Part shown: positions 26,603 through 33,100 of the stretch, one piece after another
Numbering within the stretch: position 1 is the first letter of the stretch
Layout of the letters: each line of letters begins with the position of its first letter
Source of the DNA: Natronorubrum sulfidifaciens JCM 14089
Lineage (GTDB): Archaea; Halobacteriota; Halobacteria; Halobacteriales; Natrialbaceae
DNA: 64,000 bases
Assembly: GCF_000337735.1 (NCBI RefSeq)
Contig: NZ_AOHX01000042.1
Location: 20,504 to 84,503 of the forward strand
Direction of reading: 5' to 3'
Program-made: the position numbers and the translations under genes
Notes under the pieces: model-generated
What the model saw: only the letters and a program-made list of their open reading frames with translations
Told to the model about the DNA's origin: nothing
Database searches by the model: none

Positions 26603-28051
26603 TTACTCTGTGACGGAGTCCGTCTCGGTCGGCGCTGCCTGTTCCGGCCCCGAACCATCGTCGTCGACCAGCGACTTCTTCCATGTCCCACGGGTAAACC
26701 ACACGACAGCAGCGAGTGCACCGACGATGTCGCCGACGACGACGCCGGTCCAGATACCCGTGGTGCCCCAGCCGGCGACGAAGATCAGATAGTAAGTGAC
26801 CGGAACGCGGACGATCCACAGCCCCAGCACGGAAAAGACGAGCGCCGTCTTCGTGTTCCCGGCACCCCGAAACGCCCCCAGCATGACTTGCATGATACCC
26901 ATGAAGACGAACGCGACCGCGGCGAACTGGAGATACGTGACGCCGTACGCGAGGGTTTCGGCTCGTCCGGCTGTCTCGGCCGTGAGGAACACCGCAACGA
27001 ACGGCTCGGGAAAGAGGATGGCGAGCGCACCGGCGACGGCCATGATCCCGCCGATCACACCCGAGGCAAGCCACGTCGCCTTCGCTGCCCGATCGGCCCG
27101 CCCAGCGCCGAGATTCTGGCCGACGATCGAATCCGTCGCCTGCCCCATCCCCATCGCGGGTAGGAATGCAAGCGAGATCAGCCGGTTACCCAGCCCGTAG
27201 GCCGCGACGACCGCCGGCGGGAAGGTGACGACGATCGCCGTCATCGCAACCATCGCCAGCGCCGTCATCGACTGCTCGAGCGCCGTCGGCACGCCGAGTC
27301 TGGTGATCTCGGTCACGTACTCGAGGCGCGGGCGAAAGTGGGCAATCTCCATGGTGGGGCCGGTCGTCGTGTAGTACAGCAGATAGAAGCCGATCACCGT
27401 GGCGAGCCCTCTCGAGACGACGGTCGCGACGGCAGCGCCTTCGATCTCGAGTCGGGGAAACGGTCCGACACCGAAGATGAGCAGCGGGTCGAGTGCGAGG
27501 TTGACGACGACACTGATGACCATCACCCGCATTGGGGCACGGGTGTTGCCGTAGCCGCGCATGAGTGCCGCGAAGATGAAAAACCCAAAAACGAACGGAA
27601 CGCCGAGGAAAAAGATCCGTAGATAATCCCCAGCAAGCGGGAGGATTGCGGCCTGCGTGTCGCTATCGGCGGGGAGTGCGGCGAGCATCGGGTCCGTCGC
27701 GACGTAGCCCACGATTCCGAGCACGATCGCGAGCAACGAGATAAACGAGATCGTCTGACCGGCGATCAACCCGCCCTTGCCGCTTTCGGCACCCGTATGC
27801 TGGGCGATCAGGATCGCCCCTGCGGTGGTGAAGCCGGCCCCGACCGCGATCACCAGAAACAGCAGTGGAAAGGCGAGGCTCACCGCGCCGACGGCGTCTG
27901 GTGAGAGTGCGCCCAGCCAGAACGTATCACCGACGTTGTAGGCGACCTGTAACAGTTGGATGACCACGAGTGGCCAGGCCAACTGGAACATCGGTCGGAC
28001 GAGGCTCCCTTCCGTGAGGTTGCTCTCGTCCGACACCTCGCCGGAGGACAT
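26603..28051 (-). CDS. MATE family efflux transporter
   Basis: 482-residue integral membrane protein with about twelve helices in two homologous halves (for example LVVIQLLQVAYNVGDTFWLG at the start of the first and LEQSMTALAMVAMTAIVV in the second). The first half begins PMFQLAWPLVVI, typical of MATE exporters, and the internal YGLGNRLISLAFLPAMGMGQA region matches the family. It likely exports cationic organic compounds in exchange for Na+ or H+. The length is normal. It converges tail-to-tail with the phosphoribosyltransferase gene, 13 bp apart. Confidence 0.88.
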   Translation of the reverse strand: MSSGEVSDESNLTEGSLVRPMFQLAWPLVVIQLLQVAYNVGDTFWLGALSPDAVGAVSLAFPLLFLVIAVGAGFTTAGAILIAQHTGAESGKGGLIAGQTISFISLLAIVLGIVGYVATDPMLAALPADSDTQAAILPLAGDYLRIFFLGVPFVFGFFIFAALMRGYGNTRAPMRVMVISVVVNLALDPLLIFGVGPFPRLEIEGAAVATVVSRGLATVIGFYLLYYTTTGPTMEIAHFRPRLEYVTEITRLGVPTALEQSMTALAMVAMTAIVVTFPPAVVAAYGLGNRLISLAFLPAMGMGQATDSIVGQNLGAGRADRAAKATWLASGVIGGIMAVAGALAILFPEPFVAVFLTAETAGRAETLAYGVTYLQFAAVAFVFMGIMQVMLGAFRGAGNTKTALVFSVLGLWIVRVPVTYYLIFVAGWGTTGIWTGVVVGDIVGALAAVVWFTRGTWKKSLVDDDGSGPEQAAPTETDSVTE

Positions 28052-28435
28052 ACTTCAACACAGTTGCTCGTCGTACTTCATGGCTCGTGAGATGTGATAG
28101 CTGTGGTCAGTATCCATGTATTATCGTAACAACTGAACCGATGTACACACAGCTATCGTGCGAGTTGATGTGCAGTGACTTACAGTGGCTACTCTATCTG
28201 TCGCCACGCTCAGATCCAATCGACACGCCCTCGAGCGACCGATCGTTCGGGCGGCCGCCGTCCAACCGTCGACCATCCCATTTCCTTGGCCGACATTCAG
28301 TCTGACGAAAGCGTACCGATTCGACATATTTCTGCCGAGAATAGACTATTCTTCTGAAATGGAATAAAAGCACAAAGGAATCTCTGCATATGGAAAGGTT
28401 TACATCATTATGAAAACCTGCTCCGAGTAACGCGT
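28052..28435. other. 384-bp intergenic region with palindromic repeat and regulator promoter
   Basis: The gap separates the MATE start from the regulator gene. It contains one repeat copy (28121-28197), then about 150 bp with no recognisable gene and several short open frames in every phase, then an AT-rich promoter segment. TTTACATC at about 28399-28406 is a TATA-like candidate about 30 nt before the ATG. It is nested in the inverted repeat AGGTTT (28396-28401) / AAACCT (28414-28419), a possible autoregulatory operator. Confidence 0.5.
28121..28197 (+). repeat. Palindromic repetitive element (MITE-like), copy 1
   Basis: 77-bp stretch beginning TTATCGTAACAACTGAACCG and ending AGTGGCTACTCTAT. 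The ends form an imperfect terminal inverted repeat (GTAACAACTGAA against TACAGTGGCTAC). It aligns with the element at 29061-29145 in the same orientation, with differences mainly in the central hairpin. No coding capacity. Related palindromes near transposon-rich regions of haloarchaea behave like non-autonomous elements; that assignment is by analogy. Confidence 0.6.
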
Positions 28436-29047
28436 ATGAGTCCCCAGTCATCCCTCCCTTCTCGTCATTCGGACGATCCCTCCAGCGGCTCCGCTTCGGA
28501 GGGACCACACGAACTCTCTCAGGACGAAATCTTTCATCTTTTACAGACCAATCGCCGGCGAGATACCATCCGTTATCTGCTCGAGTTGGACGATGAGTCC
28601 GTCAGAATGCGCGACATCGCAGAGCACGTCGCCGCGCTTGAACACGAGACGACGGTTCGGGAGTTGACATCCGCTCAGCGCCAGCGCGTGTACATCCCGT
28701 TGTATCAGTCACATCTGCCGAAACTCGATAAGAAAGGCGTCATCGAGTACAACAAATCGCGTGGTATCGTCCGATCCACCGACCGACTGGAGATTTTCCG
28801 GCCACATCTCGAGCCGTACGACGATGCTGCGTCGGCGGACGCCGATCGCTCGATCGCCGTTCATTTCGTCAACGATTACTACGCGACGGCAATCGCGGCG
28901 AGTACGAGCTTGCTGGTCGCCTCGATGCTGGGTCTGCTTGCACTCCCCGGCGTGATGCTCGGCACGATCATCACCATTCTCTTCGTCCTTGCGACGATCG
29001 GAACGAGCTACGGCTACTCGTTTCCATGGGCTCGAACGACGGAGTAG
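28436..29047 (+). CDS. Membrane-anchored winged-helix regulator, DUF7344-like
   Basis: 203 residues. Residues about 30-115 form a winged-helix domain of the DUF7344 type: IFHLLQTNRRRDTIRYLLEL, IPLYQSHLPKLDKKGVIEYN. Residues about 145-190 are two membrane segments (ATAIAASTSLLVASMLGLLA and IITILFVLATIGTSYG), so the DNA-binding part would be tethered to the inner face of the membrane. The N-terminus is Ser/Pro-rich and disordered-looking. It is bracketed by two direct copies of a palindromic element, raising the possibility that the gene moved or was inserted as a unit. Target genes unknown. Confidence 0.75.
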   Translation: MSPQSSLPSRHSDDPSSGSASEGPHELSQDEIFHLLQTNRRRDTIRYLLELDDESVRMRDIAEHVAALEHETTVRELTSAQRQRVYIPLYQSHLPKLDKKGVIEYNKSRGIVRSTDRLEIFRPHLEPYDDAASADADRSIAVHFVNDYYATAIAASTSLLVASMLGLLALPGVMLGTIITILFVLATIGTSYGYSFPWARTTE

Positions 29048-29060
29048 CTCGTCGGCTGCG

Positions 29061-29145
29061 TTATAGTAACAACTGAAACGATTTACACACTGACCGCACA
29101 GCCGTCGTGCAGTCAGGTGTGCAGTGACTTCAGTGGCTACTATAG
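29061..29145 (+). repeat. Palindromic repetitive element (MITE-like), copy 2
   Basis: 85 bp beginning TTATAGTAACAACTGAAACG and ending CAGTGGCTACTATAG. Terminal inverted repeats TATAGTAACAACTGAA and TTCAGTGGCTACTATA pair over 16 bp with two mismatches. The inside is a second, nested inverted repeat (CACACTGACCGCAC against GTGCAGTCAGGTGTG), giving a long cruciform or hairpin. It is non-coding, and in the same orientation as the copy at 28121, 860 bp upstream. Confidence 0.65.
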
Positions 29146-29170: not shown

Positions 29171-30118
29171 TCAATCAGCGATCGCTTCGCTCGAGTCCGT
29201 CTCGACTGTCGCGTCTTGCACCCAGAGATCACCGAACAGTTCGTCCTGCTCGAGGCGGATTCGACCCCGGTGGGAGAGAAACAGCAACGCCAGATACGTC
29301 ATCACGCGTGAGCCACCAACGGCTTCGATTTCAGCGAACAACACTTCATCGCGGCCCTGCTCGTACTGGCTTGCAAGCGCATCCTCGACGGTGTCGATGA
29401 CCGTCTCGATATCCTCCTCGTGGGTCGTGTGCGTGACATCGTCGCTGGTCGGCTCGTCGTCGACCCGGAAGTCGTCGTCCGAGTGGTAGTTCAGCTCCTG
29501 CATCCCGCGGTCGTACCCGCGTGGCGAGTCGCTCGTGTCGTAACTCCGGGACTCTTTCCATCGCGTATCGCGTTCGGCGCTGCGGAGCTCCCGAACCAGT
29601 TCGTCGAGCGTCTCCGGCTTCCCGCGAGCGTGTTTGCGCTCGAGGCGACGTTCCATCTCCGCCTCGAGGCTCTCGATGGGATCGAAGCCGGGTGCCGGCC
29701 CGCCGCCGTCACCCCCGTCCACTGGCCCCTCGTCGGCAAAGGGGGCTTCCCACGGCGGCAGCTCCTCTTCGTCGGGCTCGTCCGGCGTGAACAGCTCGTC
29801 GCTTTTCATCCGCAGGAGGACGCTCGCGTAGAACAGCGCCCGGCCGGAGGTCCGCAGGTCGGCGTCGTCGAGCGCCTCGAGGAACTTGTCGGTCACGGCG
29901 ACGATGTCGATATCCCACGGATCGATCTCGCCGTCTTCGGCGAGTTGGACCAGCAGTTCGACGGGTTCGACATCGTCGCCCCCCGCTTCGTTGTCGCCAC
30001 TGTCGCCGTCGTGTTCGTCGCCTTCTGAAAACTCGAGAACTGTCGACTCGTCGGCTCCCGGTCGCTCGCGCTCGTCGTGGCCGGCGATCTGCAGTGGGAT
30101 GTCGTCGTCCTCAGTCAC
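29171..30118 (-). CDS. scpA: Segregation and condensation protein A
   Basis: 315-residue kleisin of the ScpA family. The SMC-neck-binding N-terminal region is PVELLVQLAEDGEIDPWDID at about residues 46-65, and the C-terminal winged helix VMTYLALLFLSHRGRIRLEQ contacts the SMC head. The middle is long and acidic. The GTG giving MTEDDDIPLQIAGHDE was chosen: it overlaps the smc stop by 8 nt and matches the conserved N-terminus, whereas an ATG seven codons upstream lies inside smc. Together with SMC it forms the archaeal condensin. No scpB was found in this window. Confidence 0.88.
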   Translation of the reverse strand: MTEDDDIPLQIAGHDERERPGADESTVLEFSEGDEHDGDSGDNEAGGDDVEPVELLVQLAEDGEIDPWDIDIVAVTDKFLEALDDADLRTSGRALFYASVLLRMKSDELFTPDEPDEEELPPWEAPFADEGPVDGGDGGGPAPGFDPIESLEAEMERRLERKHARGKPETLDELVRELRSAERDTRWKESRSYDTSDSPRGYDRGMQELNYHSDDDFRVDDEPTSDDVTHTTHEEDIETVIDTVEDALASQYEQGRDEVLFAEIEAVGGSRVMTYLALLFLSHRGRIRLEQDELFGDLWVQDATVETDSSEAIAD

Positions 30119-33100
30119 TTGCTGGCACCTCCTCGCCATCGCCGTCGCTGCTGAGATCGATCCCGGTCACCGCGCTCACGTTGTCCTGTTGCATTGTGAC
30201 CCCGATCGCCCGTTCGGAGCGGTCGAGCATGGCCGAGCGATGCGAGACGACGACGAACTGCGCCTTCTCGGAGAGTTCGTCGACCATCTGGCCGATCCGT
30301 TCGGCGTTGACGGCGTCGAGGAAGGCGTCGACCTCGTCCAGTGCGTAGAACGGGGCCGGGTTGTGGCGCTGGATCGCGAAGATGAAGGCCAGCGCCGTCA
30401 GTGACTTCTCGCCGCCGGACATCGCATCGAGTCGCTGGATCGGCTTGTCGCCGGGTTGGGCTTTCATCGTCAGCCCGCCGTCGAACGGATCGGCCTCGTT
30501 CTCCAGATGGAGCGTCCCGGTCCCCTCCGAGAGCTTCTCGAAGATCTCCGTGAACTGCTCGGCGATCTCGTCGTAGGAGTCCATGAACGTCTGTTTTTTC
30601 AGCGTCTCGTACTGCTCGATTCGGTCGCGAATCCCCTCGCCCTCCTCGACCAGCGTCGCCTTCGCGTCCTCGAGGTCCTCGAGATCGTCTCGCACATCGT
30701 CGTACTCGTCGATCGCGAGCATGTTCACCGGCTCCATCGCCTCCATATCCGCTTGCAACACCTCGATCATCTCGAGGACCGTCTCGTGATCGGGCACGTC
30801 CTCGGGATCGTAGTCGCCGACCTCGGCCTCGAGGCTCTCGATCTCCCACTCGAGGTCGCGCAGCCGGCTGCGTGCGTCCTCGAGTTTGCTCTCGACGGCG
30901 TTGACCCGATCCTGTTGCTGGTCGCGTTCGGTTCGGGCCGTGGAGAGTTCCTCTTTGAGGTCGCTGCGCTCGGCTTTGAGTTCGGTGAGTTCGTCCTCGA
31001 GTTCCGCGACGGCCTCCCGTTTGTCCTCGAGGCTCTCGCGTTTCTCAGCGATCGCGGCCTCGCAGTCCTCGATCCGGGCTTCCTGTTCGGCTTTCCGGTT
31101 TTGGGCCGTCTCGATGTCGTCGTGGAGGTCCTCGATCGCGTCCTCGGCGTACTCCTTTTCCAAGCTCAGTTCGTTGAGTGTGCTGTCGAGATCCGCGATG
31201 CGATCCTCGCGGTCGTCGATCTCGTCCTCGATCTCCTCGATCTCGGCGGTGAGTTCGGGAATCTTCGAGTCGGCGAGTTCGGTCTCGAGGTCGTCGATCT
31301 CGGCTTCGATCTCCTCGACTTCGGCCGTCTTCGTCTCGATCTCGCGGGAGAGTTCGGTCATCCGCTCGTCGACGGACCCCCGCTCGGTCTCGAGGTCGTC
31401 GAGGTCGTCTCGGAGTTCGTCGATCTCGGCTTCGATCGACTCGCGTTCGTCCGCGAGGCTCTCGAGTTCGGTTTCGATCGAGCGCACCTCGTCGGCCGCA
31501 TCGGTCTTGCGGTCGCGGGCGTCGTCGAGGCGTTCTTCGACGCCACGAAGCTCCTCGCGAAGGGAGTCGCGCTGGTCTTGCAACTCGGTGATCTGTTTCG
31601 CGACGCGCTCGAGTTGGCCCTCGCCGCCGCCGGTAAAGGAGTACCGCGAGCCGCCGCCAGAGCCGCCGGTCATCGCGCCGCTTTTCTCGACCAAGTCGCC
31701 GTCGAGCGTGACCATTCGGTAGTCGCCCATGTACGAACGAGCGGTCTCTAAGTCTTCGACGACCAGCGTGTCGCCGAGGACGTACGAGAAGACGTCGGCG
31801 TACTGCCCGTCGAAGTCGACGAGGTTGTACGCGAAGTCGACCACGCCGGGATCGCTCGGCGCGTTGGGCAGCCGGCGCTTGTGCATGTCCGTCATCGGGA
31901 GGAACGTCGCCCGGCCTGCGTTGCGCGATTTGAGGTGGTCGATACACTGCTGGCCGACGACGTCGTCGTCGACGACCACGTTCGCGAGTCGCCCGCCTGC
32001 GGCCGTCTCACAGGCGACGGCGTACTCGCCGGGGACGGTCCCAAGCTGGGCGACCGCGCCGCGGACGCCGTTGATCCCTGCGTTCAGAATCGTCGTCACC
32101 GCACGGCCGAACGAGGAGTCGCCGCTTTTGCCCGCGTTGGCCTCGAGTTCGGCGTACTCCTGTTGTTTCGCCTGAATCGTATCGTCGACGTCGTCGAGAT
32201 CCGACTGGAGCCGGCGCTTTTCACGTTTGAGGTCGTCGACGACGCCCGCGATGTTCTCGCGGTTTTTCTCGGCCTTCTCGAGTTCGCGCTCGAGGTCGGC
32301 CCGTCTGTTTTCGATCTCGGGGAGGTCCTCACGGCGTTGTTCGATCGTCGCCTCCTTTTCGCTGATCTCGTTCGAGCGCCGCCGGGCTTCGTCTAACAGG
32401 CGGTCCTGTTCGCGCTGGAGGTCGTTTTTCTCGGTTTTGACCGCCTCCAGCTCGTCTTTTCGCTCGGCGAGGTCGGCTTTCAGCTCGTCGAACTCGGTGT
32501 CGACGGCGTCGATCTCTGCTTCGAGTGACTCGCGTTCGGCCTCGCGGTCCTGAATCTCGCTTTTGACCTGTGCTTTCTCGAGTTTGTGCTCGCGGATCTC
32601 GCCGGCGAGGTCTTCGATCCGTTCCTGTTTGCGATCGATTTTGACGAAGGCCTCGCGGCGCTTCGATTCGGCGTCTTCGATCGCGTCCTCGCTGGTCTCG
32701 ATTTTGTCCTCGAGCCGTGAGATGTCGCCTTTGATCTCCTCGATCTCGCTTTTGATCCGGAGCTGTTCGTCCTCACCTTTGCGCTCGATTTCGGCGTTCA
32801 GATCTTCGAGGTCTTCTTGCAAGCGGACGACTTTCCCCTGTCGTTCGTCGAGTTCACGCTGGAGGTCGGTCAGTTCCTCCTCGAGGTCTTCGACACGCGT
32901 CTCGGCGCTCGCGAGTTCGTCGCGTTTCTCCTCGAGTTCGCTGGCCTTCTTGTAGCCCTCGTACTCCTCCTTTTCATGCCGCAGCCGTTGGTATCGAAGG
33001 GCTTCCTGGCGTTCGTCCTCGAGTTGGGTGAGTCGGTCGCGTTTCTCCTCGATACGGAGTTCGGCCTCGTCGATCCGCTCTTCGACGACCTCGAGTTCCT

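Follow-up and report, generated by a model that had tools for sequence, protein, structure and literature searches.

The two short palindromic repeats that flank a DUF7344 gene in the window (the 64,000-nucleotide stretch of Natronorubrum sulfidifaciens JCM 14089 DNA analysed here) are very probably non-autonomous MITEs of the IS630/Tc1-mariner type, each about 80 bp long, that were inserted separately beside a resident gene. Both belong to one repeat family with defined ends and a defined structure, and empty sites in relatives reveal 2-bp target duplications. The MITE-like origin suggested in the preliminary description is supported by the copy number, the inverted-repeat ends, the lack of coding capacity, the empty sites and the matching outer ends of an IS630-type relative, whereas the composite movement of the enclosed gene that it proposed finds no support at the sister loci.

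The repeat copies and their family in the genome

Copy 1 occupies positions 28124-28194 of the window on the plus strand, with a core from GTAAC to GGCTAC at 28126-28192 (67 bp). Copy 2, which is near full length, occupies 29064-29142 on the same strand, with its core at 29066-29140 (75 bp). These coordinates include the terminal TA and bear out the earlier observation of two repeats with common ends in the same orientation; the copies are 940 bp apart with the DUF7344 gene between them. Putative target duplications (TA) lie at 28122-28123, placed by means of the empty sites described below, and at 28195-28196 around copy 1, and at 29062-29063 and 29143-29144 around copy 2. The inverted repeats, given previously as 16 bp in the second copy, extend over 14 bp, two of them mismatched (TAGTAACAACTGAA / TAGTAGCCACTGAA), and over 16 bp when the flanking TA is included. 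The nested central hairpin ascribed to copy 2 is also supported, with a predicted RNA folding energy of -35.3 kcal/mol, compared to -14.3 kcal/mol for copy 1, whose inner hairpin is partly deleted and whose terminal TA has become TC at both ends.

In the whole genome, pattern searches allowing up to three mismatches found 67 left ends and 77 right ends, whereas reversed control patterns gave no match, so the counts are far beyond chance. Pairing of the ends yielded 62 elements, that is, at least 62 copies, and the distance from GTAAC to GGCTAC is exactly 76 bp in most of the 62 pairs, which is the family norm. The family is thus a short, multi-copy repeat without coding capacity, and its terminal inverted repeats are asymmetric, with 12 of 14 bp complementary. 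About fifteen elements form a long class of 92-364 bp (the longest single element is 364 bp), in which a G+C-rich, partly tandem insert is placed in the hairpin loop; nearly all genome matches of this insert fall inside long-class elements. Examples in this genome (G000) include C26:290516, C37:235856, C29:194707 and C2:65665. One end pairing of 1,186 bp results from the joining of the ends of neighbouring copies. Copies adjacent head to tail were observed in this and two other genomes (G000 C47:19338-19495, G058 C49:27969-28145 and G139 C36:43217-43393), perhaps because the ends of the element themselves offer a TA target.

A search of the repeat against haloarchaeal genomes, as the preliminary description had suggested, was positive in 60 of the 145 Halobacteria species sampled, representing 26 of 58 genera (covariance model, with copy counts taken from the best 30 matches per genome). 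No match was obtained outside the same order in a sample of 197 genomes of the phylum. The family is also present in 50 haloarchaeal plasmid records, mainly where no gene is annotated. Phage or viral spread was rejected, as phage records gave no match to the family and an exact 25-mer of the repeat was absent from viral contigs.

Target site and the IS630-type relative

The flanks of the copies in this genome read C(0.55)TATA on the left and TATAG(0.66) on the right, with C in 36 and G in 43 of 65 copies, and both bases are significantly enriched (p 4e-5 and 6e-9, respectively). The implied word CTAG is about sevenfold depleted in the window, where it occurs 12 times against 83 expected from dinucleotides. 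Since TATA is palindromic, the target duplication is unreadable from the flanks alone, and filled sites were therefore compared with empty ones. On pHH400 of Haloarcula hispanica, the filled site reads CTTCTATAGTAACAATTG...CAATGGCTACTATAGCTCC (shorter form CTTCTATAG...CTACTATAG), and the same site is empty in H. sinaiiensis and H. marismortui (CTTCTAGTTTCG, CTTCTAG). From this comparison, a TA within CTAG was duplicated, and the element itself reads TAGTAAC...GGCTACTA. Four of six such filled/empty pairs fit a 2-bp (TA) duplication in length, one at an exact CTAG and the others at CTGG (H. hispanica, 363664), CTAC (Halomicrobium mukohataei, 80963) and CCAG (Halomicrobium sp. LC1Hm, 99636); in the remaining two, the empty sister site falls 4 bp short of the length expected from a TA duplication. 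On the homologous large plasmids of Haloarcula, nine strong copies were found in H. hispanica and no copy in H. sinaiiensis or H. marismortui (NZ_CP073369.1 and NC_006395.1 vs NC_015944.1; L175, L176, L172).

TA duplication is a hallmark of the IS630/Tc1-mariner group, and IS630 itself prefers CTAG. A purified transposase of the IS630 family (ISY100) inserts almost exclusively at TA, which it duplicates (PMC2170065). A search for DDE_3 genes revealed a 1,055-bp haloarchaeal IS630-type element at more than a dozen loci in many genomes (e.g. L178, L182 and L185). Its ends are TAGTAACCGTTAGAA and TAGTAG(G/A/T)CGTTAGAA, and, as in the MITE, the outer ends read TAGTAAC and TAGTAG and the flanking TA is part of CTA..TAG. 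Compared with each MITE end, 11 of 15 aligned positions are identical, the outermost seven (left) and six (right) bases are the same, and in both elements the left end departs from the right end at the same position, giving the same asymmetry. On the other hand, the 1,055-bp element encodes a transposase, and the inner parts of its ends and all of its internal sequence differ from those of the MITE. In one genome (G063), this element is nested inside a MITE copy, at the CTAG present in some MITE variants (L178, C3:209633-210049 with flanks, locus 1364-2501), and its transposase is split into two overlapping frames.

The relatives within insertion sequences anticipated by the preliminary description were thus found in part: the outer six or seven bases are shared with the 1,055-bp element, but no partner with identical ends was found in the 292 genomes searched. 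A pattern that excludes MITE interiors gave only 16 matches there, whose letters look like right-end MITE variants, and yielded no IS-like candidate with full MITE ends. In the genome of the window, the DDE_3 search returned a single match, which belongs to another element type and is not surrounded by MITE-like ends, and no intact IS630-type candidate; several MITE-rich genomes had no DDE_3 match at all. As neither a partner with identical ends nor an intact local candidate was found, the acting transposase is assigned by class rather than by identity, and this class and a cut-and-paste mode of movement are suggested by the duplicated TA and by the ends in common with IS630. An IS630-type transposase probably acts in trans on TAGTAACAACTGAA and TAGTAGCCACTGAA and excises the element, which would then be pasted into a TA, preferably inside CTAG, with duplication of that TA. 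The two copies in the window would have arisen by independent insertions of this kind, one in each of the gaps that border the DUF7344 gene.

Hairpin covariation, other readings of the repeats and the DUF7344 locus

A hairpin model built on forty 76-bp copies consists of an outer helix, an internal loop and a central stem. Two-sided changes number 45, compared to 16 in shuffles, with the majority in the central stem, and a single pair occurs as UA, AU, GC and CG, which indicates that pairing is conserved while the sequence changes. This covariation fits selection on the hairpin, although palindrome correction driven by replication could have the same effect. Only sub-threshold Rfam matches were obtained, and a known RNA family was rejected.

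One reading is that the repeat was spread by a transposase long ago and is now kept for function, as an RNA or DNA hairpin that acts as a terminator-like structure, a processing site or a protein-binding palindrome. In addition to the covariation, the position of copy 2, about 16 bp past the stop of the DUF7344 gene and 28 bp past that of scpA in a convergent gap, is consistent with such a role, as is the presence of many copies in several genomes that have no DDE_3 transposase. However, the sites are not conserved, since relatives lack copies at the orthologous positions and two homologous plasmids of Haloarcula have none at all, and template switching during replication can also produce paired changes in a palindrome; the chance that function now maintains the repeat is therefore small. 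A bolder extension of the IS630-type reading, which we consider rather unlikely, is that the hairpin is selected as an RNA or DNA signal, that its loop takes up tandem G+C-rich cargo, and that the MITE thereby gives rise to new 3'-UTR hairpins or binding sites throughout Halobacteria.

It is improbable that the family is of the same type as the SMR of Haloquadratum, a small mobile repeat with inverted ends unrelated to transposons, no target duplication and an unspecified mobiliser. That the search of 292 genomes gave no autonomous element whose ends are identical, and that two empty sites do not fit TA, would agree with this reading, but the four sites that fit a 2-bp duplication and the end sequences and asymmetry that match the IS630-type element argue against it. 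The 2-bp duplication at four of six sites, together with the IS630-like ends, does not fit the definition of SMR.

The gene between the copies was confirmed as a DUF7344 gene by a profile match (E 4e-26); it lies at 28436-29047 on the plus strand, encodes 203 amino acids and is syntenic in relatives. Its neighbours, likewise conserved in synteny, are a MATE efflux family gene on the left (26603-28051, minus strand) and scpA on the right (29171-30139, minus strand), with smc adjoining. In a structure prediction made without an alignment, the C-terminal hydrophobic helical region of the protein is confidently predicted; the model, with a mean pLDDT of 50, is otherwise too poor to vouch for the winged helix given in the preliminary description. 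DUF7344-like matches number 18 in this genome and up to 29 in relatives, making this a large haloarchaeal family.

Two congeneric species (G002 and G007) keep the order MATE-DUF7344-ScpA, with a DUF7344 protein that is 77-80% identical and neither repeat at the locus. In another genus (G011), a DUF7344 gene also lies beside scpA without either repeat. Because the spacers are poorly alignable, presence or absence can be read from these loci but not the exact junctions. Sister loci lacking the whole 28.1-29.1 kb segment, as composite movement would predict, were not what was found: the gene is there and only the repeats are absent. What is fixed at this site in the sister species, and stands beside scpA in the other genus, is the gene and not the repeats, which implies that the repeats did not carry it along. 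On these comparisons of sequence, the DUF7344 gene is a resident and not cargo, and the two MITE copies are best read as separate insertions in the flanking gaps.

The proximity of the copies agrees with this picture. For 63 copies in a genome of 3.46 Mb, chance alone predicts about 1.1 pairs no more than 1 kb apart, and three were counted, so that two copies bracketing one gene need no explanation. The copies differ by one deletion and base changes (76-93% identity in aligned blocks) and are therefore not a matched recent pair. That they are the ends of a larger transposon carrying the DUF7344 gene, as their common orientation and 940-bp spacing around a gene first suggested, is scarcely credible given this divergence, the expected chance pairs and the gene kept without repeats in G002, G007 and G011, and a composite transposon was rejected.

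Significance and related repeat systems

Based on the results presented above, a repeat that is very common in Halobacteria and is situated mainly outside annotated features can now be identified as a probable IS630-type MITE. Annotation, the dating of insertions and the avoidance of false cargo claims may all draw on its covariance model, its TA target and the sequences of its ends, and the Haloarcula plasmids with nine copies or none offer a natural system for dating the arrival of the MITE. Two of its properties are testable, namely, the preference for CTAG, a word strongly depleted in the genome, and the covarying central hairpin. This covariation and the long class of 92-364 bp with its G+C-rich loop insert are apparently unreported. 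No published description of the sequence (searched with the 12-mer GTAACAACTGAA) or of a haloarchaeal IS630 MITE was found in the open-access literature, which is not proof of absence.

The MITE, SMR and PATE of Haloquadratum walsbyi are transposase-free mobile haloarchaeal repeats, and, in the sections of that description considered here, none of them is an IS630-type MITE (PMC3119063). In the same sections, PATE is described as having no inverted ends and SMR as making no target duplication (PMC3119063), whereas the present MITE has terminal inverted repeats and a 2-bp duplication at four of six sites. PATE, which derives from IS200/IS605 and carries near-terminal palindromes, was ruled out by the terminal inverted repeats.

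By comparison of their features, the closest in kind appear to be two bacterial systems. The repeat unit of pneumococcus (RUP) is a 107-bp intergenic element with about 100 copies and a TA target, and its ends resemble the ends of an IS630-family element that is presumed to mobilise it (PMC2229807). The haloarchaeal MITE is likewise short and mostly intergenic with a TA target and IS630-like ends, but RUP is bacterial and of other sequence, and the haloarchaeal autonomous element shares only the outer part of its ends with the MITE. The Correia or NEMIS elements of Neisseria are short, with inverted ends, a terminal TA, a target duplication and hairpin-forming transcripts, and fall into two size classes, the longer one with an internal insert (PMC2229807). 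Inverted ends, terminal TA, hairpin and two size classes all recur in the haloarchaeal MITE; the Neisseria elements differ in that they are bacterial and, within the comparison made, show no sequence relationship, whereas the haloarchaeal insert is repeat-rich and sits in the loop of the hairpin.
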